Assembly (NCBI GenBank): GCA_012517355.1
Contig: JAAYVD010000017.1
Coordinates: 1 to 63,378, forward strand
Origin: Candidatus Rifleibacteriota bacterium
GTDB lineage: Bacteria; Muiribacteriota; Ozemobacteria; Ozemobacterales; Ozemobacteraceae
Length of the DNA: 63,378 nt
Direction: 5' to 3'
In this document: positions 11,635 through 46,447 of the stretch, piece after piece
Numbering within the stretch: position 1 is the stretch's first letter
How the letters are laid out: each line of letters opens with the position of its first letter
Notes under the pieces: model-generated
Databases searched by the model: none
What the model was told of the DNA's origin: nothing
The model's input: the letters and a program-made list of their open reading frames with translations, nothing else
Made by a program: the position numbers and the translations under genes

Positions 11635-14013
11635 CTACTTCCGCCCGGCCTTCTTCGGCGCCTGCAGGGCCCGCCAGACGTCCTCCTGGCGGATGGGCAT
11701 GTGGGTGAGATCGGCGCCGACCGCGTTCTGCAGGGCGTTGCCCAGACCGCCGCAGATGGCGATCATCGAGTGCTCGCCCACCCCGCGGCAGCCGAACGGC
11801 CCATCGATCTGCGGGGTCTCGACGGCGATACAGTCGATCTCCTCGGGCATGTCGAGCGAGGTCGGGATCTTGTTGTCGGTGAAGTTCGGGTTCAGCAGCC
11901 GGCCGTCGGGGGCATAGCGGTAGCCCTCGCACATCGCGGTGCCCAGGCCCTGCAGCATGCCCCCGATCGCCTGCCCACGCACCGACCGGGTGTTGATGGC
12001 CCGCCCCACGTCGAAGGCGCTGGCCACTTTGATAACATTGTACTCCCCTGTACGAGGATGTGCCTCGACGATGATCCCGTGGGCGCCGTAGGTCCAGTCG
12101 AGGGCGGGGTGGCCCTGGCCGGTCTCCTTGTCGAGGTTGCTGAGCCCCTGGGCGACGTAGCGACCGACCCCGACCAGCGGCCCGCCGATGGCGTTGCCGT
12201 CGGGATAGGCGTAGCCCACCGCCATCGCCTTGAAGCTGACCGCCTTCTCCGGATGATGGGCGACGTAGACCTTCTCGTCGTCGTGGGCCAGGTCGCAGGG
12301 GTTGGCCCGCAGCACCTGGGCGGCCACCTCGTAGGCCCGCGCCAGCAGGTCCTGCGCCGCCAGGATGCCGGCGTTCCCGCTGAGCAGCAACCCCTTGCTG
12401 GCCACGGTCTGCCAGTCGTAGGGGTCGCGGTCGGTGTCGTTCTCGACGGGCAGCCGCACCTTCTCGACCGGGAAGCCGAGAGTTTCGGCGATGATCTGCA
12501 CGATCGAGGTGTAGGTGCCCGCCCCGATCTCGGTCAGCGACAGGTTGGCGGTGACCGTGCCGTCCTCGTTCATCTTCAGGATGACCACGGTGCCGGTGAA
12601 GGGCGGCATGGCCGGCGCCTTGTGCAGGGCGACGACCGCCTTGCCGATCTTCATGCCGGTCTTCTTCTCGCGCGCCTTCTCGGCCGCGCTCAGCTTCCCG
12701 TAGCCGATCGAGTCGGCCACCTCCTGCATGCACAGCCGCACGTTGCCGGTGTTCTCGGTGATGTGCTCGCCGGTCAGGCTGACCGAACCGGGCTTCAGGG
12801 CATTGAGCATCCGGAATTTCAACGGGTCCATGCCGATGGTGCGGGCGCACAGGTCCATGTGCCGTTCCATGCCCCACGAGAACTCGACGTGGCCGAACCC
12901 GCGGTAGGCGGTGCCGAACGGCTTGTTGGTGTAGACCGTGTAGGCGTCGACCCAGGCGTTGGGGATCTCGTACGGCCCGGCCGCCGAGTAGCCCGAGGCG
13001 CGGGTGACGTTGACCGCGTAATCGGCGTAGGCGCCGGCATCCCAGTACATGGTCATCTTCTGCGCCACGATCCGGCCGTCCTTCTTGACCCCCGTCTTGA
13101 TGTGGTAGACGAGGCCGGAGCGGCAGGGCAGCATGCTGAACTCCTCCTCGCGGGTGGCCTGGATCTTCACCGGCCGGCCGCCCGCCTGGCGCGACAGCAA
13201 GCAGCAGAGCGGCTCGAGGTGGATGCCGGCCTTGCCCCCGAACCCGCCACCGACGTAGGGGATGTAGACACGGATGTTGGCGTGGGAGATGCCGAACGAG
13301 TGGGCGAACAGGTTGCGCACCGTGAACGGCGACTGGGCGCTGGTGATGATGCTGATGCGGTCCCCCACCATCCACTGCCCGATCGTCACGTGCGTCTCCA
13401 TCGGCACGTGCTGCACGTTGGGGTTCGTGTATTCGCGCTCGATGATCTTGTCGGCCTCCTTGAACCCCTTCTCGACGTCGCCCTTCCGCAGCTTCGTGTG
13501 GTTGGCGATGTTGGTGCCGGGAACCGGCGTGAAGACCGCCTTGACGTAGTCGTACTTCCCAAGGTCGGGATGGACCAGCGGCGCCCCCTTCTGCGCGGCC
13601 GCCTTCGGCTCCAGCGCCGGGGTCATGACCTCATACTCGACCTGGATCAGGTCGACCGCCTGTTGCGCGATGGCGGGCGTCTCGGCCGCCACCGCCGCCA
13701 CGGCCTCGCCGAAGTGGCGCACCACGTCCTTGGCGAGCACGTGCTTGTCGACCAGGTAGAGGCCGACCCGGTAATCCAGTTCCTTGCCGGTCAGCACCGC
13801 GTGGACGCCGGCCAGCTTCTCGGCCTTGCTGGTGTCGATGCGCTTGATGCGGGCCTTGGCATGGGGGCTTCGTTTGACCTTGCCGTGCAGCATCCCCGGC
13901 ACGACCCAGTCACCCGTGTAGAGGGCGGCCCCGGTCAGCTTCTCGACGGTGTCGATGCGCTCGACGCCCTTGCCGACGATTTTCAGTTCGGAATCGGGAA
14001 TGTTATCGAACAC
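11635..14013 (-). CDS. xdhA: xanthine dehydrogenase-type hydroxylase, molybdenum-binding subunit
   Basis: This is a 792-residue large subunit of the xanthine oxidase family. Seen are the N-terminal domain (VERIDTVEKLTGAALYTGDW), the moco-binding VGGGFGGKAG, the Arg-containing FGTAYRGFGHVE, and the C-terminal GPFGCRGVGEHSMIA that carries the catalytic Glu. Such enzymes hydroxylate carbon next to nitrogen in purines and other N-heterocycles and pass electrons through 2Fe-2S centres to FAD. The start overlaps the stop of the iron-sulfur gene by 11 bases. Order FAD, FeS, Mo subunit on the minus strand matches a single operon. Substrate cannot be read from sequence: this superfamily includes xanthine, nicotinate and aldehyde enzymes. 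No XdhC-type maturation gene is in the window. Confidence 0.93.
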   Translation of the reverse strand: MFDNIPDSELKIVGKGVERIDTVEKLTGAALYTGDWVVPGMLHGKVKRSPHAKARIKRIDTSKAEKLAGVHAVLTGKELDYRVGLYLVDKHVLAKDVVRHFGEAVAAVAAETPAIAQQAVDLIQVEYEVMTPALEPKAAAQKGAPLVHPDLGKYDYVKAVFTPVPGTNIANHTKLRKGDVEKGFKEADKIIEREYTNPNVQHVPMETHVTIGQWMVGDRISIITSAQSPFTVRNLFAHSFGISHANIRVYIPYVGGGFGGKAGIHLEPLCCLLSRQAGGRPVKIQATREEEFSMLPCRSGLVYHIKTGVKKDGRIVAQKMTMYWDAGAYADYAVNVTRASGYSAAGPYEIPNAWVDAYTVYTNKPFGTAYRGFGHVEFSWGMERHMDLCARTIGMDPLKFRMLNALKPGSVSLTGEHITENTGNVRLCMQEVADSIGYGKLSAAEKAREKKTGMKIGKAVVALHKAPAMPPFTGTVVILKMNEDGTVTANLSLTEIGAGTYTSIVQIIAETLGFPVEKVRLPVENDTDRDPYDWQTVASKGLLLSGNAGILAAQDLLARAYEVAAQVLRANPCDLAHDDEKVYVAHHPEKAVSFKAMAVGYAYPDGNAIGGPLVGVGRYVAQGLSNLDKETGQGHPALDWTYGAHGIIVEAHPRTGEYNVIKVASAFDVGRAINTRSVRGQAIGGMLQGLGTAMCEGYRYAPDGRLLNPNFTDNKIPTSLDMPEEIDCIAVETPQIDGPFGCRGVGEHSMIAICGGLGNALQNAVGADLTHMPIRQEDVWRALQAPKKAGRK

Positions 14014-14494
14014 GGCGGATCTCCTCCTTCCGGGGCTTGAGCTGCCCGGTCGCGTCGAGGACCGACTCGATGATCTGCTGGTAGCCGGTGCAGCGGCAGA
14101 AGTTGCCCTCGATGGCCTCTTTGATCTCGGCCACGGTCGGCTTCGGATGGATCTTCAACAAGGACTTCACCGACATCAGCATCCCGGGAGTGCAGAACCC
14201 GCACTGCACGCCGTGGTTGCGGTGGAAGGCCTCCTGCAGCTTCGACAGCTTGCCGTTCTTCGCTTCGCCCTCGACCGTCTCGATGACGCCGCCGTCGACC
14301 TCGGGGGCCAGCACCAGGCACGAGTTCACCGTCTTCCCGTTCAGGATGACCGTGCAGGCGCCGCACTCGCCGGCCCCGCAGCCCTCCTTGGTGCCGGTCA
14401 GCCCCAGGTCCTCGCGCAGGAAGCGCAACAGGGTGCGGTTCCCCGCCACCTCGCGCGTGTAGTCCTTGCCGTTCACTTTGACATGGATCTTCAT
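14003..14494 (-). CDS. xdhC: xanthine dehydrogenase-type hydroxylase, 2Fe-2S subunit
   Basis: This is a 163-residue two-domain iron-sulfur protein. The N-terminal plant-ferredoxin fold binds one cluster through EGCGAGECGACTV and a later Cys (NSCLVLAP). The C-terminal helical domain binds the second cluster through GVQCGFCTPGM and NFCRCTGYQQI. It relays electrons from the molybdenum subunit to the FAD subunit. The ATG at 14494 follows GGGAGGGAAGGA. Length is standard for the family (150-170 residues). It sits 20 bases after the FAD-subunit gene and overlaps the molybdenum-subunit gene, consistent with equal stoichiometry of the complex. Confidence 0.95.
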   Translation of the reverse strand: MKIHVKVNGKDYTREVAGNRTLLRFLREDLGLTGTKEGCGAGECGACTVILNGKTVNSCLVLAPEVDGGVIETVEGEAKNGKLSKLQEAFHRNHGVQCGFCTPGMLMSVKSLLKIHPKPTVAEIKEAIEGNFCRCTGYQQIIESVLDATGQLKPRKEEIRRVR

Positions 14495-14514
14495 GACCGT
14501 TTCCTTCCCTCCCG

Positions 14515-15330
14515 TCAGGACAGCGCCGGCAGCAGCTTCGCGATGAACTCCTGCACCATGGCCAGCCGGAATTCGCGCGAGGCGCGCACGTCGTCGATGG
14601 GGTCGATGGCCTTCAGGGCGGCTTCGGTGACGGCCTTGACCGACGCGTTGGGCGGCAGGTCGGCCGCCACCACCGGGGTCGGGGCGCAGGACCCGATGCC
14701 CACCCGCAGCCACTGGGTGGTGCGGGCGATGGCCACGCTGACCACCGCCAGGTCGTGGCCCTTGATGCGCTTGAGCTTCTCCATGCCCCACTTCGCCCCG
14801 GCCGCCACCACCGGGTAGAACACGCGCTGGACGGCCTCGTCGTCCTTCAACTGGGTCGCCTTGACCCCGGTGAAGAAGTCCTTCATCGGGATCACGCGGG
14901 TGCCGCGGGCCGAGACCAGCTCGACGCGGGCTCCCAGCACCAGCGAGCTGCAGCCGAGGTCGGCGCACGGCGAGGCGGTGCAGAGGTTGCCGCCGATGGT
15001 GGCCCGGTTCCGCAGCTGCGCCGACCCGATCTGGCCGGCCGCGTGGGCCAGCAGCGGGAACCGCTTCCTGACCACCGGATGCTCCATCAGCTCGACGCAG
15101 GTGACGGCCGCGCCGACCGCCAATCCGTCCTGCTCGGAGAACGCGATCCCCCGGAACTCGGCGATGTTCTTGACGTCGATCAGGACCTCGGGCCGGTCGG
15201 TGCCCAGCCGGATCTCGCACAGCAGGTCGGTGCCGCCCGCCAGCAGGCGCGCCTGGGAGGAATGCTTCTTCAGCAGCTGCAACAGGTCCTTCCTCTCACG
15301 CGGCGCCAGGTAGGAAAACTCGTGAAGCAT
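14515..15330 (-). CDS. xdhB: xanthine dehydrogenase-type hydroxylase, FAD-binding subunit
   Basis: This is a 271-residue protein of the CoxM/XdhB flavoprotein family. The FAD site motifs are LLAGGTDLLCEIRLG near residues 30-45 and QLRNRATIGGNLCTASPCADLG near residues 100-120. The start at ATG 15330 follows AAGGAG; the 26-codon longer version would begin upstream of the predicted transcription start and is rejected. It is the first gene of the three-subunit hydroxylase operon and delivers electrons from the 2Fe-2S centres to NAD or another acceptor. Confidence 0.93.
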   Translation of the reverse strand: MLHEFSYLAPRERKDLLQLLKKHSSQARLLAGGTDLLCEIRLGTDRPEVLIDVKNIAEFRGIAFSEQDGLAVGAAVTCVELMEHPVVRKRFPLLAHAAGQIGSAQLRNRATIGGNLCTASPCADLGCSSLVLGARVELVSARGTRVIPMKDFFTGVKATQLKDDEAVQRVFYPVVAAGAKWGMEKLKRIKGHDLAVVSVAIARTTQWLRVGIGSCAPTPVVAADLPPNASVKAVTEAALKAIDPIDDVRASREFRLAMVQEFIAKLLPALS

Positions 15331-15379
15331 GCGCGTGGAACTCCTTTCCGTGTTCGGATTCTCTCCATCGATCCCCGTC

Positions 15380-15408
15380 ATTAAATAGGAAGCGGGAACC
15401 GAAATCAA
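15380..15408 (-). promoter_or_regulatory. candidate sigma-70 promoter of the xdh operon
   Basis: Read on the minus strand: TTGATT (15408-15403), 17-base spacer, TTTAAT (15385-15380). It matches the consensus in 9 of 12 positions and stands out as an AT-rich island. Transcription would begin near 15373, about 43 bases before the xdhB ATG. Confidence 0.6.
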
Positions 15409-15479
15409 GGCCCGGCTTCCTTATCCTGATGCCAGCCCGGCCGATGTCACTCACCAAGAGCCCAATCCCGGATTCCCAC

Positions 15480-15655
15480 CCGCCCGACCTGCGTCCACCC
15501 GCGTCCACGGCATTCATCCCCGTCCATCCTCGTCCATCCGATTTCATCCGCGTTCATCCCGTTCATCCGGGTTCTTCCGCTTCCTCCGCTTCATCCGCTT
15601 CATCCGCGTTCTTCCGCTTCATCCACGTTCTTCCGCGTTCTTCCGCGTTTTCCGC
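15480..15655. repeat. degenerate tandem array of 9-10-bp units (TTCATCCGC type)
   Basis: About eighteen imperfect units of the form (C/G)(C/G)TTCATCC or CGCGTTCTTC follow each other, for example CGCTTCATC three times near 15590-15615. The start of the array is more varied (GTCCACCC, GTCCATCC). It occupies the middle of the 444-bp gap between the divergent xdh operon and the cyclase gene. It has no spacers of constant length, so it is not a CRISPR. Similar ATCCGCG/TTCATCCG strings are, from memory, scattered in intergenic regions of many uncultured bacteria. Confidence 0.75.
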
Positions 15656-15774
15656 AGCCTGGTCCCTTCGGCCTTCTCCAGCCAGGATCCGGCAATCCTT
15701 CCGGCAGGCCAGGTGCACCCGGCGACGAGCCTTCCCACCTCCCGTCAGGCTTGTGATACCGTGGAGCGGTGGTG

Positions 15775-18700
15775 ATGAGCGACTCCCAACCCAACCGGGT
15801 GTTCCGGGTCCCGGAGGGCGGCGCCCGGCGTTGGCTGCTGCCGATGTTCCTGACCCTGGCCCCGCTGCTGCTGCTGTACCAGACCGTCCTCGAGGAGCGG
15901 GTCCGGGTGGCCGACGCGCAGGACCGGGAGCGGGTGGCCGCCTCCGACCCCGCCGTGGCCCGGCTGCGGGCCGCGTCCCATCTCAAGTTCTGGGCGGAAC
16001 AGACGGGCCGACGCCTGGTCCGGCTGGTGGAACGCCGCCTCCGCCAGGAAGCGGGAGGTTCACCCCCGTCCCTGTCACACGCCCTCGCGGACCTGGGGCC
16101 CCGCTACCGCTTCGCCGGCGCCCCCCCCGTCAAGGTCTGGGCCTTCGCCTGGGACAACCTTCCGACGGTGCGCAAAGCGGGCGTTTCACCCCACCCTCCG
16201 GAGGGCCCGGAGGAAAGGGCCGGCCTCCCGCCCGCCCTCGCGCCGGCCGCCTCGACACCGGCGCCCGGCGCGGGCCGGCAAGGAGGAAGAACCGGCCCCG
16301 GCCCGGCGACCGTCCTGCGGGGCCCGGGCCTGGAAACCACCTTCGGCCGGGCCATGGCGGGAATCTTCGAAGCCGTCGCCGCCAGCCGGTTCGCCCCCGG
16401 GCCTCCTCCGATCCCCCGCCCCGTCCTGCAACGGGCCCGGGAAACCTTCGGCCCCGGTCTGAACCGGGACATGCTGTCGGCCGCGGGCCGGGGCATTGCC
16501 CACCACGTCATCTACCAGGGGCAGTTCCACCTGCTGGTCTGGGACTTCTGGATGGTCCGCGGCCGGCCGGCGGGGGGATTTTTCCTGCTGATGCCCATTC
16601 CCGCCGACCGGCCCGACCTGGCCCTCGACCTCTGCCTCCGGCACTGGCGAGGCCTGGCGGGCGGCCGGCCTTTCTGGCCGGCCTTTTTCCAGTTCCCCGG
16701 CCCCCCTCTCCCGGGTTCCCCCCGCCGCCTCCTCCACCCCGATCTCGAGCGCCTGGGCCTGGCACCCGCGCTCCGGAAGCGGGCGCGGGAGGTCGGGCTC
16801 AGGCCGGCCCGCGAAACCCTGGGGAAGATCGACCCCGCCCGCTGGCTGGCGACCGATCCGGCGCGGCTCCCCGACGTCTACGGCACCCTCACCTTCCCCG
16901 TGGACCGGTTGGGCCGGTGCCTGCCTCTCGGTTCCTGGCTGACCCGCCTGGAGGTCTTGCGACCGGATTCCCGCCATTTCGCCTTCCTGGTCATGCCGGG
17001 GCCGGGGGCGCGACCCACCCCCCTCGAGATGGCCTGGCAGGCCCTGCTGGTGGCCTGGATCATCGGCTGGGTGCTGGTCTTCGGCGTGACCGCCTGGCGG
17101 GGGCGCCCCGCCCAACCCCGCGTGGCCGTCCAGTTGACGGGCTGGTTCCTGTGCCTGGCCGGAGTGGCCGGGGCCCTCGTCTTCTCCTCGCACCGGCAGT
17201 TGCGACAGGACCTGGAGAACCGGCTGCTGGACAGGATGCACCAGCGCCTGGAGAACCTGGCCCGCACCCTGGAGGGGGAGGCCACCCGCCAGGGATACCG
17301 CCAAGGCACGGTCTGCAACCGGCTCCTGCTCGACCCCGTTCTCCACCGCGACCTGCGCCGGGCCCGCCTGGCCGATGACCGGGCCGCGCCGGTTCTCGCG
17401 CCGGTCTGGCAGGCCCTGGTCAGACGCGGCATGGAACCCCAGTTCGTGACCGCCGTGGGTTCGGGCGGCTACCTGCTGGCGACCTTTTCCCCGCGGATCG
17501 CTCCCGAGGAGCAGAGCGGCCTGCGGACCGTCCTGCAACAGTACGGCGCCCCGTTCTTCGACGAGGGGGCCGGCCCGGGCGAGGGCTCCGCCAGCGCCGG
17601 GTTCCGCACCAACCAGGTTTTCTCCACCGACCGCGGTCACGACCTTCGGCACCCCGGCCTGCTGGGAACCGCCACCCTCGGCGGGCGGCAGATCTCCCGG
17701 ATCCACCAGTTCGTCCGGATCGGCGACCGGGTCATCCTCTACCTGGCCGCCTTCTGGGACCGCGACCAGGCCTTCCGGCGACACCTGCAACGGCTCCTGC
17801 GCCGGTTCCACGGCCAGACCGGCCAGGAGGTGGCGGTCTTTTTCCAGCAGGGAGCGTTCCTCGAGGTGGTGGCCCAGGCCGGCCGGGTGCCCACCTTGCG
17901 CGCCGCCGCCCTCGAATACCTGCAGAAACCACGGTTCCGCCTCGAGGCCGGCGGCCGCTTCCTCCGCTACCTGTATCCGAGCCCTCTCCTCCCGGGCTAC
18001 ACGTTCGCCCTCCGCCTGTCCCTGGAGCCCGTGGCCAGGCGCCTGGCGGAGGAGGATGCCTCCTTCGCCTGGCTGCTCGGAATCGGGCTGGGGCTGACCG
18101 TGCTGGCGGGGGCCGCCCTCAACGCCTGGCTGGCCCGCCCGATCCTGGGGATGACCGAAGCCCTGCACCGGGTCGACCAGGGGGACTTCGCGGTGCGGGT
18201 CGGCCTGGCCCGACAGGACGAACTGGGGCGCGCCACCGCCACCCTCGACCGGATGGTGGAAGGCTTGCAGGAGCGCGAAAGCATGAGCCGGTTCGTGGCC
18301 ACCGGGGTCATGGAGGTGATCCGGACCGACCCGGGTACGACCCCGCCCCGGGGGCGACGGGAACCCGTGGTCATGCTCTTCTCCGACATCCGCGACTTCA
18401 CCACCCTGTCCGAAACGCATCCTCCCGAGGCCATCTTCGCCACCCTCAACCGGCATTTCGAAGCCATGACCGTTCCCATCCAGGCCGAGGGCGGCATGAT
18501 CGAACGATTCATCGGGGATGCCATCCAGGCCGTCTTCACCGGCCGGCCGGGGGAACCCGCCGCCGACCGGGCCCTGCGGGCGGCCCACGCCATGACCGCC
18601 CGGCTGGCCGATCTCCAGGCCGCCCGCGCCGCCGCCGGGGAGTTCCCGTACCGCATGGGAATCGGATTGGCCGCCGGCGAAGGCATCACCGGGGTGGTCG

Positions 18701-21700
18701 GCGACCCCGAGGTCCGTCAGGACTTGTCGGTGCTCGGCGCCGTGGTCAGGGAAGCGGCCGCGATGGAGGCGGCGACCAAGGGGCTCCCGCCGGGGGCCAT
18801 CGCCTGTTCGACGGAGGTCACCCGCCTGGCCGCGCCCGGCTGGTCCTTCGCCCCGGTCCCCGGCCACCCCGGGGCCTGGGAGGTGGTTTCGGGTGCCGAC
18901 GGCCTTCCCCCTGCCCCTTTCCGCGCCGACGTGACAGCGGACGCTCCGGCGGGGAACCACCGGGGAACCGGCATCGACGGCCCCGGACCGGAACCCGGCC
19001 GCATGGCCACCCCCCGCTTCGATCCCGGGCGGGCGAGCCTGTGGGCAGGGTTCCTGTTCTGGCTGCTGGCCTGGCTGGTCATGGGAACCGTCGAAGGACA
19101 ATGGCGCGACGACCTGGCCGGCTGGCGGGAGCGGCAGGCCCGCCAGATCCTTCGCCAGGACCTTTTGGAGGTCGGGAAGGCGGCCCGGGAAAAGCTGCAG
19201 GTGCCGCTCCTGCTGCGTCAGGTCATCCACCACGCCTGGCGGCAGGCGACGGCGACCCCGACCGACACGATGTCGGAAGTGCCCCTTTGCCGCCACGGAT
19301 GGCGGCGCGAAACGCCCGTTTCGCGCATCGCAAAGGGGCCGACCGTCGCTCCGGCCGGCCGCCGGGCCACCCCCCCCCTTCCCACCACCCCCGACACGCC
19401 CAACGCACGGGGAGCGGCCTCCCCAACGGTGCCTCCGGATCGACCCCATGGCCTCGAAGGCCCCCCGACCGGGTTCACCGGGTCCGTGAACCCCGCCGCC
19501 ACCCCCTCCGACCGGGCGATCGGACGGGCGCTGGAACGCCTTCGCCGCCTGCTCCCCACCATGTCCTGGGCCATCGTCCAGGCGGGGGGGCCCTTCCCCG
19601 GCCAGCCTCAGGACGAGCGTATGCTGCTCCAGGATATCTGGTGGCGCCGGGACGCCATGGGGCTGCCCCCCAAGCCAGAATCGCCGGGCACGCGGTTCAT
19701 CCAGGCCGCCGCCGCCCTGGGCGTGATTCCCCGCCAGCAGATCCCCGATGGGGTCTTCCCGGCGAGGATCATCGCCACCGGCTCCCGCCCCCTTCCCCTG
19801 CCGCCCTGGCAGCTCGTCTTCCTGCAATGGATCCTGGAGCGCTGCCGGGCCGGCGGCAGCGCTTCCCCCGACCCCAGCGATTGGGAAAGCCTCTTCCTGC
19901 CCGTCATCGGGGAGATCTCCCGCGACCTTCGCAGCCTCTTCCTGGAGTGCCACGGCGGTTTTCACATGCTCAACCTGGAAGGCCGTGAACACCTGTGTTT
20001 CTGGGAACCCCTGCCCCTGCCAGGTCTGGCCACCCAAACCACAAGCGTGTTCCGGCCCGACCGGGGATATGACTCCCCCCCTCCTCTCCGCGCCAGCGTC
20101 CTGGTCTTCCTCCCCCTGGAGGACCTCCGCCTGGAGGCCGGCCTGCGGGCCATGATCCACCGGCTGGGTCCCACCGGCACCTTCCTGGACATGAGCCCGG
20201 AGGGCCCCCTGGCACGCCCCGGAGGCTCTTCCGGCCTCGGATCGGTCGGATCCGGTCACCGGCTGGCCCATCCCAGGGCCCGGGCCCTGGGAATGCCCCC
20301 CTTGGCCTGGACGGAACCGGTGCTTCGGCCGACCCTCCATGGCGGCCCGGAGGTATTTCCTGCCACGCGGCGGGCGGGACGGCTGCCGCCGGGATGGGTC
20401 CGGGAGCGCGCCCACCTGGATACCGGGGTGCAGCGCTTCCGGGTGGAGGCCTTCCGCCGCCTGCCTGATGCAAGACCGCCGTTTGCTCTCCTGGTGTGCT
20501 GGACCGCCCGCGTCCTCTGGCTTCTGGCGGGAGCCCTGGCCGCGGCCTTCCTGTCGATCGGGGCCGGCTCCCCCGACCTTTCTCTCCGGACCAAGCTCGC
20601 CGGCGCCTTCCTGGCCATGGTGATCCCGACCCTCGTGATCAGCGCGGGGGTCCTCGGACGGCGCGCCATCGCCCAACAGGAGAGCACCGTGAGCCGGGAG
20701 GCGGCCGGTCTCGAGCGCGCCATCGGGCAGACCGAAGAGGCTCACGACGCCCTTCTCGGATGGAACTGCCGCCTGGTCTCCAGCCTCGCCGCCCAACCCG
20801 CGCGACAGGAGGGGTTCCTGGCATGGCGGCCCGACACCGGCCCCCGTGCCCGCGAGAGGAATTCCCCCCCTCTCAATGATTTCTACGACGAGGCCATCCG
20901 GCTCGGCTCCGTCCTGGGCAACATCGGCGTCGGCGGCCCCGGCCTGCCCATCCAGTCGCTGAACCCCTCTCCCGCCGCGCCCAAGGACGCCCAGGGAACG
21001 AACCTCCTGATCGACATCCTGCAGTTGTCGGTGAAAGCGGCCAACCCGGAACTGGGGAGGGGAAAGGGCCCCGGTCCTCTAGGCAACGCCCGGGAAGGCC
21101 TCATGGTCGACGAGATCGTCAACGCCCTGTTCCTGTTTTCCGCCGGTGATCTGCTGGCCGACTTCTTCAGCGCCCCCGAAGCCTTCTGCCGGATCGTCTG
21201 GGGGGACAACTCCCTCCAGGTCTTCCGCCTGTTCCTTCCGCTCGACCGGCCACCCCGGTTGATCCTGTATGCCGCCTGGGATTCCCGGGGGATCATGGCC
21301 CCTATCGCCGAAGCCTGGCGCCGCCGGGCCCGGGAAGGCCATCCCGCCGAATTCCGCCTCGCCGGCCAGACCGCGCCCAACGTCACCATCGTCCGGCCCT
21401 ACCTCCGGTTTCGGCCCAGCGGGCCCGACCGGCGCTGGGGGGGATTCCACGAATTCACCTCCTTCGACCCGCCCGGCCTGGGACAGGTCATCACCACCGC
21501 CTTCCAATCCGGCGAAACCATCAGCCGGATCCTGGGAACGGACGGGGCGGCGGCCCTCGTCCTGGCGAGGCGCAGCACCACCAGTCCGGGGTTCATCTTC
21601 ACCATGTCCTCCCCGGTCGGAGTGACCCTGGCCGGACTGGCCGCCCAGGCGACCCGCCGGCAATGGTTCCTGGTCGGCCTGTTGGCGGTGACCCTGGTCC

Positions 21701-22545
21701 TCGCCCGGCAGATCGCCGTCCGTTTCCTCGCCCCGCTGGAGGCATTTTCCCAGGCGGCGGGCGAGATCACCGCCGGCCGCTTCCGCCTCCGCCTCGACAT
21801 CGCCCGCACCGACGAGTTCGGCGCCCTGGCCCAGGCCTTCAACCGCATGTGCCGCGGCATCGAGGAGGGAAGGCTGCTCCGGCGCTTCGTCTCGGAATCC
21901 GTCCGCCAGGCAGCCCGGGATGCGACCCGCGCGGAGGCCGCCCGCCGGGGCCAGCACCGGGAGGCGGTCGTCCTGTTCGCCGGGGTTCCCGGGTTCACCG
22001 ACCACCTGGAACGGACCCCGCCCGAAGCGGTCCTGGCCGCCCTCAACGCCTACCTGAGCCGCCTGGCCCGGATCATCCGCGCCCATGAGGGCGAAATCGA
22101 CAAATTCATCGGCGAGAAGGTCCTCGCCGTCTTTTCCGCGGAGACGCACGGGACCTTGGCCCGCGCGGCTGGCGCGGCCCTGGCCGCCGGCCAGGCCCTG
22201 GCCCGGGGGCCAAGCCGGGCGGCCTCGGCGCGGGCACGCGACGCCGTCCTGGCCGTCCCTCCCGGGGTCGGCATCGTCACCGGCCGCGTCCTGGCCGGCA
22301 TCCTCGGCACGCCTGCGGTGCGCCTCGAGTACACCGTGCTGGGCGACCCCGTGAACCTCGCCTCCCGCCTGTGCGACCTGGCCATCCGGGAGGGGGGCGC
22401 CACCGTCCTGCTGGACGCCGCCACCGCCCACCTGGCCGCCGGCGGCCCCCTCCGCTGCGTCCCGCTGGGAACCACCCGCGTCAAGGGGAAGACCCGCGAG
22501 GTCGAGGTCTGGCGCCTGGACGACCCCCGCCCCCCACCTCCCTGA
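15775..22545 (+). CDS. giant membrane sensor with two complementary class III cyclase domains
   Basis: This is a 2,256-residue protein; ATG 15775 has GGAG eight bases upstream, and a GTG two codons earlier is in frame. Each half has membrane segments, a large extracytoplasmic region, a last membrane helix, a HAMP linker and a class III nucleotide cyclase domain. HAMP 1 follows WLLGIGLGLTVLAGAALNAW (about residue 770); HAMP 2 follows WFLVGLLAVTLVLARQIAV (about 1970). Cyclase 1 has metal-binding Asp871 (FSDIRDF) and Asp915 (IGDA) but Arg992 and Ala996 where Asn and Arg are needed. Cyclase 2 has Gly2070 (FAGV) and Glu2114 (IGEK) in place of the Asp residues but keeps Lys2110, Asn2194 and Arg2198 (VNLASR). 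Together they could form one active site making cAMP; cGMP is not excluded. Pro/Ala-rich inserts and two palindromic repeats lie in the extracytoplasmic regions. Confidence 0.88.
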   Translation: MSDSQPNRVFRVPEGGARRWLLPMFLTLAPLLLLYQTVLEERVRVADAQDRERVAASDPAVARLRAASHLKFWAEQTGRRLVRLVERRLRQEAGGSPPSLSHALADLGPRYRFAGAPPVKVWAFAWDNLPTVRKAGVSPHPPEGPEERAGLPPALAPAASTPAPGAGRQGGRTGPGPATVLRGPGLETTFGRAMAGIFEAVAASRFAPGPPPIPRPVLQRARETFGPGLNRDMLSAAGRGIAHHVIYQGQFHLLVWDFWMVRGRPAGGFFLLMPIPADRPDLALDLCLRHWRGLAGGRPFWPAFFQFPGPPLPGSPRRLLHPDLERLGLAPALRKRAREVGLRPARETLGKIDPARWLATDPARLPDVYGTLTFPVDRLGRCLPLGSWLTRLEVLRPDSRHFAFLVMPGPGARPTPLEMAWQALLVAWIIGWVLVFGVTAWRGRPAQPRVAVQLTGWFLCLAGVAGALVFSSHRQLRQDLENRLLDRMHQRLENLARTLEGEATRQGYRQGTVCNRLLLDPVLHRDLRRARLADDRAAPVLAPVWQALVRRGMEPQFVTAVGSGGYLLATFSPRIAPEEQSGLRTVLQQYGAPFFDEGAGPGEGSASAGFRTNQVFSTDRGHDLRHPGLLGTATLGGRQISRIHQFVRIGDRVILYLAAFWDRDQAFRRHLQRLLRRFHGQTGQEVAVFFQQGAFLEVVAQAGRVPTLRAAALEYLQKPRFRLEAGGRFLRYLYPSPLLPGYTFALRLSLEPVARRLAEEDASFAWLLGIGLGLTVLAGAALNAWLARPILGMTEALHRVDQGDFAVRVGLARQDELGRATATLDRMVEGLQERESMSRFVATGVMEVIRTDPGTTPPRGRREPVVMLFSDIRDFTTLSETHPPEAIFATLNRHFEAMTVPIQAEGGMIERFIGDAIQAVFTGRPGEPAADRALRAAHAMTARLADLQAARAAAGEFPYRMGIGLAAGEGITGVVGDPEVRQDLSVLGAVVREAAAMEAATKGLPPGAIACSTEVTRLAAPGWSFAPVPGHPGAWEVVSGADGLPPAPFRADVTADAPAGNHRGTGIDGPGPEPGRMATPRFDPGRASLWAGFLFWLLAWLVMGTVEGQWRDDLAGWRERQARQILRQDLLEVGKAAREKLQVPLLLRQVIHHAWRQATATPTDTMSEVPLCRHGWRRETPVSRIAKGPTVAPAGRRATPPLPTTPDTPNARGAASPTVPPDRPHGLEGPPTGFTGSVNPAATPSDRAIGRALERLRRLLPTMSWAIVQAGGPFPGQPQDERMLLQDIWWRRDAMGLPPKPESPGTRFIQAAAALGVIPRQQIPDGVFPARIIATGSRPLPLPPWQLVFLQWILERCRAGGSASPDPSDWESLFLPVIGEISRDLRSLFLECHGGFHMLNLEGREHLCFWEPLPLPGLATQTTSVFRPDRGYDSPPPLRASVLVFLPLEDLRLEAGLRAMIHRLGPTGTFLDMSPEGPLARPGGSSGLGSVGSGHRLAHPRARALGMPPLAWTEPVLRPTLHGGPEVFPATRRAGRLPPGWVRERAHLDTGVQRFRVEAFRRLPDARPPFALLVCWTARVLWLLAGALAAAFLSIGAGSPDLSLRTKLAGAFLAMVIPTLVISAGVLGRRAIAQQESTVSREAAGLERAIGQTEEAHDALLGWNCRLVSSLAAQPARQEGFLAWRPDTGPRARERNSPPLNDFYDEAIRLGSVLGNIGVGGPGLPIQSLNPSPAAPKDAQGTNLLIDILQLSVKAANPELGRGKGPGPLGNAREGLMVDEIVNALFLFSAGDLLADFFSAPEAFCRIVWGDNSLQVFRLFLPLDRPPRLILYAAWDSRGIMAPIAEAWRRRAREGHPAEFRLAGQTAPNVTIVRPYLRFRPSGPDRRWGGFHEFTSFDPPGLGQVITTAFQSGETISRILGTDGAAALVLARRSTTSPGFIFTMSSPVGVTLAGLAAQATRRQWFLVGLLAVTLVLARQIAVRFLAPLEAFSQAAGEITAGRFRLRLDIARTDEFGALAQAFNRMCRGIEEGRLLRRFVSESVRQAARDATRAEAARRGQHREAVVLFAGVPGFTDHLERTPPEAVLAALNAYLSRLARIIRAHEGEIDKFIGEKVLAVFSAETHGTLARAAGAALAAGQALARGPSRAASARARDAVLAVPPGVGIVTGRVLAGILGTPAVRLEYTVLGDPVNLASRLCDLAIREGGATVLLDAATAHLAAGGPLRCVPLGTTRVKGKTREVEVWRLDDPRPPPP
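16166..16200 (-). repeat. 35-bp palindromic repeat inside the cyclase gene, copy 1 (reverse)
   Basis: Its reverse complement matches 19296-19330 at 28 of 35 positions, including the uninterrupted core GAAACGCCCG. It lies in frame within the first extracytoplasmic region, at the edge of a low-complexity insert (KAGVSPHPPEGPEERAG). Confidence 0.7.
19296..19330 (+). repeat. 35-bp palindromic repeat inside the cyclase gene, copy 2 (forward)
   Basis: The centre is the inverted repeat GCGCGAAACG-CC-CGTTTCGCGC. It is nested in a larger imperfect hairpin whose outer arms are CCCCTTTGC (19282-19290) and GCAAAGGGG. It is translated as part of a Pro/Arg-rich insert after DTMSEVPLC in the second extracytoplasmic region. 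Confidence 0.75.
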
Positions 22546-22557
22546 CCCCCCGGAAAT

Positions 22558-22634
22558 GGTGCCACCATACCATTTTTCTGATCAGCGCCAGGTGCGGGTT
22601 TCCGAGGGCCAAGGCGTCCCGCTTTCCTGTGGCC
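22558..22634 (+). repeat. dispersed intergenic repeat, copy B
   Basis: This is the partner of 10031-10105 in the same orientation, again directly behind a gene. It begins with the short palindrome ATGGTGCCACCAT and ends in a region that can pair GCTTTCC with GGAAAAGC further on (to about 22674). Confidence 0.75.
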
Positions 22635-22729
22635 GGACCGCCGCGCCCCCTTTCCGCCGGGCCGCCGGAAAAGCGGGACACCTTGCCTCCCGCTGACCCG
22701 CTCGCCGGGCGGGTCCGAAAAAATGTATG

Positions 22730-22757
22730 GTGTCACGGTTTTTGCATTTGCTATCAT
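22730..22757 (+). promoter_or_regulatory. candidate promoter of the fdrA gene cluster
   Basis: GTGTCA (22730-22735), 16-base spacer rich in T, TATCAT (22752-22757). The -10 matches 5 of 6 and the -35 matches 4 of 6. It would start transcription near 22764, about 50 bases before fdrA. Confidence 0.5.
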
Positions 22758-22815
22758 TCCGGGAGACCGGCCGCGGCATGGCCACGCCGGCACTTCAGGG
22801 AAGAAGGGGGAAGGA

Positions 22816-24345
22816 ATGATCGTCCGTCACCGGATCAAACCCCAGACCTATTTCGACTCGGTCACGCTGATGCTGATCGGTACCGAGCTGAAGAAGATGG
22901 CCGGGGTCGGGAACGCCGTCGTCGGCATGGGAACCGACTACAACATCGACAGCCTGAAGCGGCTCGACATGTATTCCACCGAGTTCGATGCGGTGACGCC
23001 GGCCGACCTGGTACTCGCTGTGCAGGCCACCGACGCCACCGTCGCCGACGCCGCCCTGACCGCCGCCGAGGACCTCCTCAAGCGGCGGAAGGCCAAGAGC
23101 GGACCCGGCGCCAGCTACACGCCCACCTCGCAGGAGGGCGGGGCGAAGCAGTTGCCCGACGCCAACATGGTCGTGATCTCGGTGCCGGGGCAGTTCGCCG
23201 CCCGCGAGACCGAGATCGCCCTCGAGGCCGGCCGTCACGTCATGCTGTTCTCCGACAATGTGTCGATCGATGACGAGTTGCGCCTGAAGGAGATGGCCGT
23301 CCGCCGGAACCTCCTGGTCATGGGCCCCGACTGCGGCACCGCCATCATCAACCAGGTGCCGCTCGCCTTCGCCAACGTGGTCAAGCCCGGCCCCATCGGC
23401 CTGGTGGCCGCCTCGGGCACCGGCCTGCAGGAGGTCACCGCCCTGATCACCCGCCTCGGTTCCGGCATCACCCAGGCCATCGGCGTCGGAGGCCGCGACC
23501 TGTCCGAGAAGATCGGCGGCCGCATGACCCTGCTCGCCGCGCAGGCCCTGGCCGACGACCCGCAGACCAAGGTCATCGTCCTGATCTCCAAGCCGCCCGC
23601 CCCCAAGGTGGTCGAAGCCCTGTTCGCGAAACTGAAAGCCGTCGGCAAACCCGTGGTCGTCTACTTCATCGGGGCCGACCCCCAGACCATCACCAAGGCG
23701 GGGTTCCAGGCCGCCGCCAACCTCGAGGACGCCGCCCTCCAGGCCTGCCGCCTGGCCGGGGGCAAGGCCCTCCGCCCCCTCCTGGCCGACGACGAGATCA
23801 AGGCCCGCGCCGCCGCGGTCACCCTTCCCGGCAGACACCTGCGGGCCCTGTATTCGGGCGGAACCCTGTGCGACGAGGCCCAGCGCCTGCTGCAGGGCAC
23901 CCTCCCCGAGATCTGGTCGAACACCCCGGTGGCCGGGTGCAAAAACCTCGACGACCCCTTCCAGAGCAAGGGAAACTGCATCGTCGACCTCGGCGACGAC
24001 ACCTTCACCCGCGGCCGCGCCCACCCCATGATCGACCCCGCCTACCGCCAGGAACGCCTGGTCAAAGAGGCGGCCGACCCCGAGGTCGGGATGATCGCCT
24101 TCGACGTGGTGCTGGGCTTCGGCTCGCACCCCGACATGGCCGGCGAGATGGCCGCCGCCGTGCGGCAGGCCCGGCAGCAGAGCGGACGGTCGCCCGTCTT
24201 CGCCGCCACCATCCTCGGCACCGAGGGCGACCCGCAGAACCTCGCCAAACAGCAGACCACCCTCGCCGACGCCGGGGTGGTGACCTTCCCGTCCAACGTC
24301 TCGCTGGTGAAGTTCATCCAGCACGTGTTCGCACGAAAGGGGTGA
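22816..24345 (+). CDS. fdrA: FdrA-family acyl-CoA-synthetase-like protein
   Basis: This is a 509-residue protein from ATG 22816 with GGGGGAAGGA upstream. It resembles the succinyl-CoA synthetase fold in two halves: a CoA-ligase-like first half with LLVMGPDCGTAIINQVPLAF and GPIGLVAASGTGLQEVT, and a second half with AHPMIDPAYRQERLVKEAADP and FAATILGTEGDPQNLAKQ, typical of FdrA. In E. coli fdrA, ylbE and ylbF (renamed allFGH, as I recall) encode an oxamate carbamoyltransferase of anaerobic allantoin breakdown. The gene is followed by the small ORF and the DUF1116 gene (ylbE type), the same core neighbourhood. The substrate here is unknown. Confidence 0.9.
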   Translation: MIVRHRIKPQTYFDSVTLMLIGTELKKMAGVGNAVVGMGTDYNIDSLKRLDMYSTEFDAVTPADLVLAVQATDATVADAALTAAEDLLKRRKAKSGPGASYTPTSQEGGAKQLPDANMVVISVPGQFAARETEIALEAGRHVMLFSDNVSIDDELRLKEMAVRRNLLVMGPDCGTAIINQVPLAFANVVKPGPIGLVAASGTGLQEVTALITRLGSGITQAIGVGGRDLSEKIGGRMTLLAAQALADDPQTKVIVLISKPPAPKVVEALFAKLKAVGKPVVVYFIGADPQTITKAGFQAAANLEDAALQACRLAGGKALRPLLADDEIKARAAAVTLPGRHLRALYSGGTLCDEAQRLLQGTLPEIWSNTPVAGCKNLDDPFQSKGNCIVDLGDDTFTRGRAHPMIDPAYRQERLVKEAADPEVGMIAFDVVLGFGSHPDMAGEMAAAVRQARQQSGRSPVFAATILGTEGDPQNLAKQQTTLADAGVVTFPSNVSLVKFIQHVFARKG

Positions 24346-24350
24346 CGACC

Positions 24351-24554
24351 ATGGCCTCCCTCAACAACCTGTTCACCTCGCCCGTCAAGGTCATCAACGT
24401 CGGGCTGGCCAGCTTCTTCGCCGATCTCAAGAGCCAGGGGGTCACCGCCGTCCAGGTCGACTGGCAGCCCCCGGCCGGCGGCAACGCCAAGGTGGCCGCC
24501 CTGCTCGACCGGGTCCGCCGCTGGCAGACCCTGGTCCGGGCCGGAAAGGAGTGA
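24351..24554 (+). CDS. small FdrA/DUF1116-associated protein
   Basis: This is a 67-residue ORF starting ATGGCCTCCCTC at 24351, five bases after fdrA, and ending four bases before the DUF1116 ATG. The sequence begins MASLNNLFTSPVKVINVGLA and continues FFADLKSQGVTAVQVDWQPP. It is soluble, with no signal peptide. The VINVGL-FADLKSQG-VDWQPPAGG pattern looks to me like a segment present at the front of some longer DUF1116 proteins; if so, this is a split-off domain of the same enzyme. Tight spacing on both sides argues that it is real and co-translated. Confidence 0.75.
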   Translation: MASLNNLFTSPVKVINVGLASFFADLKSQGVTAVQVDWQPPAGGNAKVAALLDRVRRWQTLVRAGKE

Positions 24555-24558
24555 ACCG

Positions 24559-25815
24559 ATGAAGCGCATCGAGATCCAGGAAGCCAACCGCGCCGCCGTG
24601 GCGGCCATCCAGCAGTCGCAGCCCGTCCTGACCGGCATCGGCATCGCCGGCGAGGTGGTGCCGCGCATGCGCAAGAACCTCCTGCTGCACGCCGGTCCAC
24701 CCATCACCTGGCCCCGCATGTCCGGTCCGATGCGGGGCGCGGTCATGGGGGCCCTGGTCTACGAGGGCTTGGCGAAGACCCCGGCCGAAGCAGAGAAGCT
24801 GGCCGCCTCCGGCGAGGTCGCCTTCGAACCCTGGCACGAACACGACGGCGTGGGACCGATGGCCGGCGTGGCCACCGCCAGCATGCCCGTCTGGATCGTC
24901 GAGGACAAGGCGGCAAAGCGGCGCACCTTCTGCACCCTCAACGAGGGTCTCGGCAAGGTGCTGCGGTACGGCGCCTACTCCGACGAAGTGATGGTCCGGC
25001 TGCGCTGGATGCGCGACGTGCTCGGACCGGTGCTGCGCGAGGCGCTGGCCCTGCGCCCCGAGATCAACCTGAAGGCCCTGATCGCCCAGGCCCTGCAGAT
25101 GGGCGACGAGGTCCACAACCGCAACCGCGCCGCCACCTCCCTGCTGTTCCGCGACCTGGCCCCCGCCATCCTGCGGACCAGGGCGAAGAACGAAGACCAG
25201 CTCAAGGTGCTCGAGTTCCTCAACGCCAACGACCACACGTTCCTCAACCTGTCGATGCCGGCGGCCAAGATCATGCTGCAGGCTGCCGAGTGGCGGGAAG
25301 GCTCCACCATCGTCACCACCATGACCCGCAACGGCACCGATTTCGGCATCCGGATCGCCGGACTCAGGGACCGCTGGTTCACCGCCCCCGCCAACATCGT
25401 CAAGGGGCTGCTCTTCCCCGGCTTCACCGCGCAGGACTGCAACCCGGACATCGGCGACTCGGCGATCACCGAGACCTGCGGCCTGGGCGGGTTCTCGATG
25501 GCCGCCGCTCCCGCCATCGTCAAGTTCGTGGGCGGCTCGGTGGCCGACGCCATGACCTACACCCAGAAGATGTACGAGATCACCGAAACCGAGTCGGAAG
25601 CCTTCCAGATCCCGCCCCTCGACTTCCGGGGCTCCCCCCTCGGCATCGACCTGCTGAAGGTCTGCGAGACCGGCATCCTGCCCCAGATCAACACCGGCAT
25701 CGCCCACCGCGAGGCCGGCATCGGCCAGGTCGGCGCCGGCCTCGTCACCCCGCCGATGGCCTGCTTCGAGGACGCCCTCGCCGCCTACGTGGAGACCTAT
25801 TGTCCAAAGGATTGA
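24559..25815 (+). CDS. DUF1116 protein (YlbE family)
   Basis: This is a 418-residue cytoplasmic protein with AAGGAG ahead of the ATG. The DUF1116 signatures are visible: HEHDGVGPMAGV, NEGLGKVLRYGAY, QMGDEVHNRNRAATSLLFRDL, TMTRNGTDFGIRIAGL and NPDIGDSAITETCGLGGFSMAAAP. With FdrA it forms the core of the carbamoyl-transfer system described for E. coli allantoin breakdown; by that analogy it would move a carbamoyl group between oxamate-like amides and phosphate. The third E. coli component (YlbF/DUF2877) and the carbamate kinase are not found next to it. Its stop codon overlaps the -35 element of the next promoter. Confidence 0.9.
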   Translation: MKRIEIQEANRAAVAAIQQSQPVLTGIGIAGEVVPRMRKNLLLHAGPPITWPRMSGPMRGAVMGALVYEGLAKTPAEAEKLAASGEVAFEPWHEHDGVGPMAGVATASMPVWIVEDKAAKRRTFCTLNEGLGKVLRYGAYSDEVMVRLRWMRDVLGPVLREALALRPEINLKALIAQALQMGDEVHNRNRAATSLLFRDLAPAILRTRAKNEDQLKVLEFLNANDHTFLNLSMPAAKIMLQAAEWREGSTIVTTMTRNGTDFGIRIAGLRDRWFTAPANIVKGLLFPGFTAQDCNPDIGDSAITETCGLGGFSMAAAPAIVKFVGGSVADAMTYTQKMYEITETESEAFQIPPLDFRGSPLGIDLLKVCETGILPQINTGIAHREAGIGQVGAGLVTPPMACFEDALAAYVETYCPKD

Positions 25816-25841
25816 ACTAGTACAAATTGGTACAATAAAAT
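25812..25841 (+). promoter_or_regulatory. candidate promoter for the cyclase-family gene
   Basis: TTGAAC (25812-25817, overlapping the DUF1116 stop), 18-base spacer, TAAAAT (25836-25841). The AT-rich island contains two direct GTACAA hexamers (25820 and 25830) that could bind a regulator. It implies that the last gene can be transcribed apart from fdrA. Confidence 0.55.
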
Positions 25842-25898
25842 GAAACCTCAGCATCTGGACGGATGGCAGGCCGGGGGCGGCCCGTTCGCCCGTCTCCT

Positions 25899-25938
25899 GC
25901 CGGTCCGTGTGGACCGGCGCTCATCGGTGGCTCCACCG
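25899..25938 (+). other. two hairpins in the 5' leader of the cyclase-family gene
   Basis: GCCGGTCC-GTGT-GGACCGGC (8-bp stem, 25899-25918) is followed by CGGTGG-CT-CCACCG (25925-25938). They lie between the promoter and the GTG start and leave the ribosome site free. No known riboswitch consensus is recognised. There is no T-run, so attenuation is only a possibility. Confidence 0.45.
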
Positions 25939-25997
25939 GTGTCTCATCCGTCGACCTGCTGCCGTCTCGAAATTCCCATCTGACAAGGAGAACCCGC

Positions 25998-26786
25998 GTG
26001 AAATTCAAGATGTACGACCTCACCCAACGGCTCAGCATCCACACCCCGCCCTGGCCGAGCTACATGCCCCTCCAGGTGCAGTATTTCAAGCGCATCGCCG
26101 GGGCCCACATGGGCCAGGGCGCCAACGGCCAGATCATCAAGACCAGCAACCACGTCGGCACCCACATCGACGGCGAGATCCACTTCGTGGCCAACGGCCG
26201 CACCATCGGCGACACCCCGCTCGAGGAGTTCTGCGGCGACGGCGTGGTGGTCGACATCTCCAAGGACGTCGAGGACTACAGCCTGTACACCCCCGAGATG
26301 CTGACCAAACGCGCCGACATCCGCAAGGGCGACATCCTGATCATCAACACCGGCTACCACCGCTACGGCTGGGACCAGAAGGAAGCCGACGAGGTGCGCT
26401 ACATGGTCAAGCACCCCGGCCCCGCCCCCGAGTTCCACAAGTGGGCCCTGTCGATGAAGTTCAAATGGATCGGCGTCGATTGCGGCTCCGCCGACCACCC
26501 GATGAACACCATCCTCCGGCAGTGGCATCCCAAGCTGTTCGCCGAGGCCGAAAAGAAACTGGTCAAGAAATACAAGAAGACCTGGGACGAATTCTTCCCC
26601 TACGAGGAATACTACCAGGTCATGCACCTGAAGCTGTTCCCCAAAGGGCTCATCCACGCCGAGAACCTCGGCGGCGAAATCGACAAGCTGAACAACAAGC
26701 GCGCCTGGATCGGATTGTTCCCCTGGCGGGCCATCGAGCTCGAGTCCTGCATCAGCCGCATCGTGGCCTTCGACTTCGGCAAGTAG
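25998..26786 (+). CDS. cyclase-family metal-dependent hydrolase
   Basis: This is a 262-residue protein of the cyclase family (PF04199), which contains kynurenine formamidase and isatin hydrolase. The metal site is SNHVGTHIDGEIHF (His52, His56, Asp58, His62), followed by GDILIINTGYHRYGW and IGVDCGSADHP. These enzymes hydrolyse amide or imide bonds, often opening a ring. The start is GTG 25998 with AAGGAG seven bases before; an in-frame ATG lies four codons later. The Lys-rich segment near residues 185-200 (AEKKLVKKYKKTW) is typical of the longer subfamily. Its place after fdrA and DUF1116 suggests it prepares or hydrolyses an amide in the same pathway; that is inference from position. Confidence 0.85.
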   Translation: MKFKMYDLTQRLSIHTPPWPSYMPLQVQYFKRIAGAHMGQGANGQIIKTSNHVGTHIDGEIHFVANGRTIGDTPLEEFCGDGVVVDISKDVEDYSLYTPEMLTKRADIRKGDILIINTGYHRYGWDQKEADEVRYMVKHPGPAPEFHKWALSMKFKWIGVDCGSADHPMNTILRQWHPKLFAEAEKKLVKKYKKTWDEFFPYEEYYQVMHLKLFPKGLIHAENLGGEIDKLNNKRAWIGLFPWRAIELESCISRIVAFDFGK

Positions 26787-29224: not shown

Positions 29225-29235
29225 CCACCATCGCC

Positions 29236-30180: not shown

Positions 30181-30194
30181 GGCCGCCCCCCGCC

Positions 30195-32297: not shown

Positions 32298-32743
32298 CCA
32301 CCAAGACCATCCTGCTGATCGAGGACAACGCCAGCGATATCGAGCTGACCCGGCGGGCCCTCGACAAGAGCCATATCGCCAACCACCTCATCGTGGCCGA
32401 GGACGGGCAGCAGGCCCTGAACCTGTTGCACGGCACGGCGGACCGGCCCGGGCTGGCCCCCGACCGGTTGCCCACCCTCGTCCTGCTCGACCTCAAACTG
32501 CCCCGCCTCGACGGGCTGGAGGTCCTGCGCCACATCCGCAACGACCCCCGCACCCACCGGCTGCCCGTGGTGATCCTGACCACCTCCAAGGAGGAGCAGG
32601 ACGTCGCCGCCAGTTACGACCTCGGCGTCAACAGTTACATCCGCAAGCCGGTCGACTTCAACCAGTTCGCCCATGCCATCCAGAACCTCGGCCTCTACTG
32701 GCTGGTCCTCAACGAGGCCCCGCCCAAGGTGACCGCCCCGTGA
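32294..32743 (+). CDS. single-domain response regulator
   Basis: This is a 149-residue receiver-only protein of the Rcp1/CheY-like group that partners phytochrome-type kinases. Acidic pair Glu10-Asp11 (LLIEDN), phospho-acceptor Asp66 (VLLDLKLPRLDG), Thr in VILTTSKEEQD, and Lys in YIRKPVDFNQF are all present. It has no output domain, so it acts as a phosphorelay intermediate or binds a partner. It overlaps the kinase gene before it (ATGA) and the hybrid kinase after it (GTGA), which points to a three-protein relay. Confidence 0.93.
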   Translation: MTTKTILLIEDNASDIELTRRALDKSHIANHLIVAEDGQQALNLLHGTADRPGLAPDRLPTLVLLDLKLPRLDGLEVLRHIRNDPRTHRLPVVILTTSKEEQDVAASYDLGVNSYIRKPVDFNQFAHAIQNLGLYWLVLNEAPPKVTAP

Positions 32744-44658: not shown

Positions 44659-44681
44659 GCCCGCCCGGGCCGTCCAATCCC

Positions 44682-46409: not shown

Positions 46410-46447
46410 CCGCCCCTGGACATCCCGGGGCCGGAAGCCGAAAGATA

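Follow-up and report, generated by a model that had tools for sequence, protein, structure and literature searches.

Organization of the cyclase gene

The window, that is, the whole 63,378-nucleotide stretch of DNA that was analysed, contains at 15775-22545 (plus strand) one intact frame that encodes a protein of 2256 amino acids. No stop codon occurs in this frame between 15757 and 22542. The ATG at 15775 and the residue numbering of the first-pass annotation fit this frame, because a GGAG motif (15763-15766) lies 8 nt 5' of that ATG. Residue numbers are counted from this codon, and counting from the alternative GTG at 15769 gives values two higher. Pfam assigns two Guanylate_cyc and two HAMP domains to the protein, with both cyclase domains scoring over the Pfam cut-off for PF00211 (the Guanylate_cyc fold), and hydropathy analysis gives four hydrophobic segments per half. 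The order of the parts is four transmembrane (TM) helices, HAMP, and cyclase, and the whole set is present twice in one chain. The features of the locus are as follows.

11638 to 15420, minus strand: xanthine-dehydrogenase-like genes (Mo, Fe-S, and FAD subunits), divergent from the cyclase gene (context)
15775 to 22545, plus strand: putative fused pseudo-heterodimeric class III cyclase gene
15835 to 15891, plus strand: TM helix 1, half 1 (hydropathy; helix in the AlphaFold model)
15892 to 17040, plus strand: extracytoplasmic region 1, half 1, between TM1 and TM2 (no Pfam match)
17041 to 17184, plus strand: TM helices 2 and 3, half 1 (hydropathy)
17185 to 18063, plus strand: extracytoplasmic region 2, half 1, dCache-like (AlphaFold model, Foldseek)
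18064 to 18273, plus strand: TM helix 4 and HAMP 1 (Pfam, hydropathy)
18355 to 18828, plus strand: cyclase domain 1, C1-like (PF00211); Asp 18385-18387, Asp 18517-18519, Arg 18748-18750, Ala 18760-18762
19036 to 19092, plus strand: TM helix 5, start of half 2 (hydropathy)
19093 to 21663, plus strand: sensor part of half 2 with extracytoplasmic regions 3 and 4 (hydropathy; homologous to the half 1 sensor)
20482 to 20538, plus strand: TM helix 6, between extracytoplasmic regions 3 and 4
20584 to 20640, plus strand: TM helix 7, between extracytoplasmic regions 3 and 4
21664 to 21849, plus strand: TM helix 8 and HAMP 2 (Pfam, hydropathy)
21952 to 22500, plus strand: cyclase domain 2, C2-like (PF00211); Gly 21982-21984, Glu 22114-22116
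22102 to 22104, 22333 to 22335, 22354 to 22356, and 22366 to 22368, plus strand: Lys, Thr, Asn, and Arg, respectively, kept in cyclase domain 2 (alignment)
22723 to 26786, plus strand: genes for an FdrA-type acyl-CoA synthetase, AllG (oxamate carbamoyltransferase), and a PF04199 hydrolase (context)

The first-pass annotation had described two HAMP domains and two extracytoplasmic sensors; the HAMP count agrees with Pfam, but the sensor count does not hold, as there are four extracytoplasmic regions per chain, two in each half. The AlphaFold model of half 1 up to the HAMP domain has a mean pLDDT of 82, and its best PDB matches in Foldseek are full-length MCP (chemoreceptor) models and dCache ligand-binding domains, including those of PctD, TlpQ, Tlp3, and the uric-acid receptor McpH. 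The Foldseek probability is about 1.0 for several of these dCache matches, yet the TM-score by target is only 0.2 to 0.4, and the region has no Pfam match. Half 1 and half 2 have homologous sensor parts (734 columns; hhalign, E value of 9.6e-37), and homology of this extent indicates that an entire receptor-cyclase gene was most likely duplicated to give the chain. The same whole-gene duplication is assumed for the origin of animal cyclases.

Catalytic residues of the two cyclase domains

In class III cyclases, the substrate sits at the interface of two domains, one of which provides two Asp residues and the other Lys/Thr (or Lys/Asp), Asn, and Arg, a division that is established for mammalian C1/C2. 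The six catalytic positions are, in order, Asp, Lys, Asp, Thr, Asn, and Arg (full set, DKDTNR), and they were read here from an alignment anchored on OaPAC and CyaB, two class III enzymes of known structure that carry all six. OaPAC is the nearest PDB match of domain 1 (phmmer, E value of 8.8e-21), and CyaB is that of domain 2 (E value of 1.3e-18). Domain 1 reads DRDSRA, having both metal-binding residues (Asp871 and Asp915), with Arg911 at the Lys position, Ser985 at the Thr position, and Arg992 and Ala996 in place of the transition-state Asn and Arg. Domain 2 reads GKETNR, having Gly2070 and Glu2114 in place of the metal-binding Asp pair and retaining Lys2110, Thr2187, Asn2194, and Arg2198. 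The alignment thus bears out every residue that the first-pass annotation had named in either domain, and it places no displaced Asp or Asn/Arg near the empty positions of either domain. The complete set, namely, two Asp residues, Asn, Arg, and the substrate-selecting residues, is supplied by C1 and C2 jointly and by neither domain alone. Lys2110 and Thr2187 are the adenine-selecting residues of class IIIb, with Thr rather than Asp, and the whole residue set per subunit that marks canonical bacterial homodimers is lacking, as C1 is without the Asn/Arg pair and C2 is without the Asp pair.

Paired cyclases in Ozemobacteraceae

The source genome belongs to the Ozemobacteraceae (phylum Riflebacteria) and is a congener of Candidatus Ozemobacter sibiricus. 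It comprises 7.1 Mb in 184 contigs, is 96% complete, and carries 87 class III domains (PF00211), far above the "up to 30" per genome quoted in a 2022 review (PMC9552081); ten Ozemobacteraceae genomes contain from 31 to 64. A genome contig scan with the single protein as the query gave no match; a query built from an alignment of paralogues found relatives, the best in Candidatus Ozemobacter sibiricus BY5 (contig QOQW01000002.1) and the next best in Riflebacteria metagenome-assembled genomes (MAGs). The C2 domain is matched in 18 of 24 Ozemobacteraceae genomes, with E values up to 1e-30.

The regions around paired matches in 11 Ozemobacteraceae genomes and one other Riflebacteria MAG were searched for units, defined as two cyclase domains on the same strand with less than 4.6 kb between them, and the catalytic positions of family members were extracted from the HMM alignment. 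A unit was counted as strictly complementary when one partner has both Asp residues without the Asn/Arg pair and the other has Asn/Arg without the Asp pair. The 100 units obtained comprise 41 fused in one frame and 59 formed by two adjacent genes, with about 28 (12 fused and 16 adjacent-gene) found in the source genome, and strict complementarity is observed in 98 of the 100. The search for tandem cyclases with the same residue split, which the first-pass annotation had suggested, therefore supports its claim of complementary residue sets, and such recurrence indicates that the split in the window protein is not due to chance. One of the two exceptions (L214) has a C2 domain cut by the contig end, and the other (L196, from genome G012) has a C1 domain carrying Asn and Arg. 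Eleven of the two-gene units have the reversed order, C2-C1.

The Lys and Thr residues, which were left out of the sorting criteria, are retained in all 98 C2 domains. Almost any residue occurs at the Asn and Arg positions of C1 (entropy of 3.1 to 3.6 bits), and the Lys position of C1 is occupied by K, R, or Q, being basic in 77/98. The first metal position of C2 is G in 46 domains and is otherwise S, A, H, Q, T, or another residue. Four alignment rows show Asp there; three of them have E or N at the second metal position, and in the fourth (L029) the Asp results from a misalignment, and the residue actually there is Ala. The second metal position of C2 is D (58) or E (34), and, because it is still acidic in 92/98, the dead site is only half emptied.

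Several arrangements were treated by hand. The neighboring pair L037:609-3074 (source genome, contig C166; DKDTNR and DADNNA) was left out, and its second gene (DADNNA) is degenerate in another manner and does not complement its DKDTNR neighbor. The leading domains in L021, L197, and L199 were skipped for having three consecutive cyclase domains or a cut-off partner. L021:3800-10511 (source genome, contig C20) contains three successive cyclase genes, two C1-like (DTDTGE and DKDTQR) and one C2-like (HKDTNR), and a single C2 may serve two alternative C1 partners there. In addition, an orphan C2-like domain, GKDTNR, is found at L040:685-1380/L217 (source genome, contig C112), with no C1 partner within 13 kb.

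Unpaired domains mostly keep the full set. In the source genome, DKDTNR (11) and DKDDNR (6) account for 17 of 21 unpaired domains, counted in the retrieved part of the 87. Of 21 domains sampled from sister families of the phylum, 19 likewise carry DKDTNR or DKDDNR, and the remaining two still have Asp, Asp, Asn, and Arg. Outside the phylum, nearly all of the best relatives are single DKDTNR domains. Adjacent cyclase genes at L075, L098, and L232 show no complementarity, so that adjacency alone does not imply the split. In an uncultured cyanobacterium (L094:5110-7567; CALGDE010000152.1), two adjacent HAMP-cyclase genes are complementary (DKTTNR and DKDTQY), the first lacking the second metal Asp (Thr) and the second lacking Asn and Arg (Gln and Tyr), and they are perhaps an independent two-gene heterodimer outside Riflebacteria.

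Evolution of the partners and structural model

In a tree of 337 rows, one clade (support of 0.96) comprises 89 of the 100 C1 domains, and 95 of 99 C2 domains fall within one group of 97 (support of 0.78). When the six catalytic columns were removed, the main C1 (98) and main C2 (99) groups were again apart, with mirrored subgroups; the placement of about eleven older-branching pairs is not settled in this tree. In approximately unbiased (AU) tests, one common origin was neither rejected nor proved, with P = 0.165 for the C1 domains as a whole and P = 0.146 for the C2 domains. Partner distances are correlated in a mirror-tree analysis (r = 0.77, versus 0.17 ± 0.03 after within-genome shuffling, with a maximum of 0.30 in 1000 shuffles), also within the source genome alone (r = 0.72 versus 0.00 ± 0.10). 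This correlation reflects stable partnership rather than contact, because block duplication of whole units contributes to it.

The cyclase domains of the window protein share 57 to 66% identity with those of its three nearest relatives, and most sensor parts share 30 to 55%; the better conservation of both cyclase domains indicates that both half-sites are under constraint. Pseudogene decay was rejected in view of this conservation and of the intact frames.

The span from C1 to C2 was modelled with AlphaFold for the shortest fused relative (L201, 1120 amino acids; the same span in the window protein has 1430). The model has a pLDDT of 82 and a pTM of 0.57, and its top PDB matches in Foldseek are mammalian AC5, AC9, and AC8 over about 1150 columns, covering the whole C1-TM-C2 length. 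The query TM-score is 0.31 to 0.36 against these enzymes versus 0.15 against single cyclase domains, with an overall rmsd of about 30 Å to the mammalian cyclases and a possible contribution of the TM helices to the score. The doubled TM-score fits an arrangement of C1 and C2 of this relative as in AC5/AC9/AC8. The intramolecular pair proposed by the first-pass annotation is thus compatible with a model of a relative, at a pTM of 0.57.

Proposed mechanism and alternatives

Judged from its sequence, the window protein is very probably a membrane receptor-adenylyl cyclase, a fused pseudo-heterodimer in which one composite site is active and the other site is dead; the active-plus-degenerate pair of sites that was first annotated is also the best reading of the residues. 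Each half would be a full receptor unit composed of a TM helix, an extracytoplasmic region, two further TM helices, a dCache-like sensor, a fourth TM helix, HAMP, and cyclase. The cyclase domains would pair head to tail, as in class III cyclases, probably within the chain. C1 would give both metal-binding Asp residues and C2 the adenine-selecting Lys/Thr and the transition-state Asn/Arg to the active site, which is predicted to convert ATP to cyclic AMP (cAMP). The second site at the interface would have drifted and be dead, and both sensor halves would bear on the single active site. The halves may behave there as an AND gate, as antagonists, or simply as partners in a dimer. Homodimers of either half would not be able to work, so that activity would require the C1:C2 pair, and each half is probably unable to make cAMP except together with the other. 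In Rv1625c, the mutants D300A and R376A are each inactive and complement each other (PMC4821796). A receptor cyclase with one composite cAMP site is most likely because the two halves supply the exact residue sets and these split mutants complement. Counting against this reading, the second metal position of C2 is mostly still acidic, one unit (L196) has a C1 domain with Asn and Arg, and one C2-like domain (L040) is an orphan.

Pairing could also occur between chains, the C1 of one fused polypeptide joining the C2 of another; each C1:C2 pair would keep one active site, and the signal logic would then be that of a dimer of fused chains. Such pairing must occur where the partners are two separate genes (16 of 28 units in the source genome and 59 of 100 overall), and dimers are the usual working form of dCache and HAMP modules. 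However, since the halves are homologous over the whole length, one chain by itself already amounts to a full pseudo-dimer in its sensors, HAMPs, and cyclases; without pairing in cis, fusion would be of little benefit, and the Foldseek match between the L201 model and mammalian cyclases, which are single chains, is consistent with such pairing. We consider pairing between fused chains unlikely, though credible. There is also a small chance that the second site is an allosteric pocket for a regulator, comparable to the site where forskolin binds in animal cyclases. The residues remaining there, namely, the acidic second metal position of C2 (92/98) and the basic Lys position of C1 (77/98), would suit this idea, but residues are free to vary at the first metal position of C2 and at the Asn/Arg positions of C1, which leaves no conserved common pocket, and K/R in C1 and D/E in C2 show no visible covariation.

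That the product is cGMP or another cyclic nucleotide rather than cAMP seems quite unlikely. Substrate choice in class III is not fully readable from two residues, and Cya2, a guanylyl cyclase, is among the closest relatives of known structure; the Lys and Thr residues kept in 98/98 C2 domains are nevertheless those of the adenylyl cyclases OaPAC and CyaB. It is highly improbable that both domains are dead and that the protein is a receptor or scaffold after loss of cyclase activity. Essential residues are indeed missing from each domain taken alone, but exactly one full catalytic set per pair is present in 98/100 units while the unused positions drift, and decay would not always spare one set.

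Comparison with known cyclases

The predicted receptor cyclase with one composite site most resembles mammalian AC1-9, which likewise have two homologous membrane-plus-cyclase halves in one chain, C1 first, with the metal-binding Asp residues in C1, the adenine-selecting Lys and transition-state Asn/Arg in C2, and one active and one degenerate site. It differs from them in being class IIIb (Lys/Thr) rather than class IIIa (Lys/Asp), in having four TM helices, HAMP, and large extracytoplasmic, dCache-like regions per half instead of six TM helices, and in the first Asp of C2, which is mostly replaced by Gly in the bacterial family. Its nearest sequences are bacterial class IIIb enzymes, not AC1-9, and the likeness to animal membrane cyclases is probably convergent. 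Bacterial class IIIb receptor cyclases (with CyaB- or OaPAC-like catalytic domains) share the subclass, the HAMP linkage, and the sensor-HAMP-cyclase order, but they are homodimers with complete DKDTNR sites. Soluble guanylyl cyclase α/β and AC10 also form one active site from a heterodimeric or tandem catalytic pair, whereas they are eukaryotic and cytosolic, with other sensors and other residue details. Rv1625c/Cya of Mycobacterium tuberculosis is a class III membrane cyclase whose engineered split mutants complement (PMC4821796), but it is a natural class IIIa homodimer with six TM helices, and the split exists only in those mutants.

According to the 2022 review, bacteria have no known class III cyclase that is a fused dimer, and the advantage of a fused pseudo-heterodimer over a homodimer is posed there as a question (PMC9552081). 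Full-text literature searches, in which few subscription papers are covered, gave no account of complementary class III pairs in bacteria or of Riflebacteria cyclases. The mechanism is already known from animals; what is new is the bacterial family, its class, its sensors, and its scale. This family is a class IIIb, HAMP-linked counterpart of the animal enzymes, probably an independent one. One bacterial lineage has homodimeric, two-gene heterodimeric, and fused forms together, with dozens of each paired form, and with the three forms side by side, the question of fusion versus homodimer becomes testable by comparison and by swapping halves. A broader and more tentative reading, to which we give somewhat less than an even chance, is that this family independently evolved the obligate C1/C2 cyclase of animals, possibly more than once, with about 28 receptor pairs per genome, fused or two-gene, each bringing together the inputs of two distinct receptor halves at one catalytic site.

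Gene neighborhood and possible readout

The cyclase gene is flanked by purine/allantoin breakdown genes (Xdh-like, FdrA, AllG, and PF04199; window positions 11638-26786), and this arrangement is conserved in the genus. The FdrA assignment is over the NCBIfam cut-off. In two congeners, the Mo subunit gene again lies upstream of the cyclase gene and the FdrA-like and AllG genes again lie downstream. From this context, a ligand or a regulated pathway tied to purine/allantoin breakdown is a reasonable guess. In Ca. Ozemobacter sibiricus (L141:1609-12469), two tandem putative fused pseudo-heterodimeric cyclases occupy the corresponding locus, flanked by the Mo-hydroxylase and FdrA/AllG genes. The source genome also contains 24 cNMP-binding domains, which could act as cAMP readers.

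Elsewhere in the window, two large PAS-containing histidine kinase genes lie side by side at 29199-34668 (plus strand), the second being a hybrid with receiver domains, and a very long open frame at 44627-50890 (plus strand) encodes 2088 amino acids that consist largely of HEAT/Arm-like repeats.
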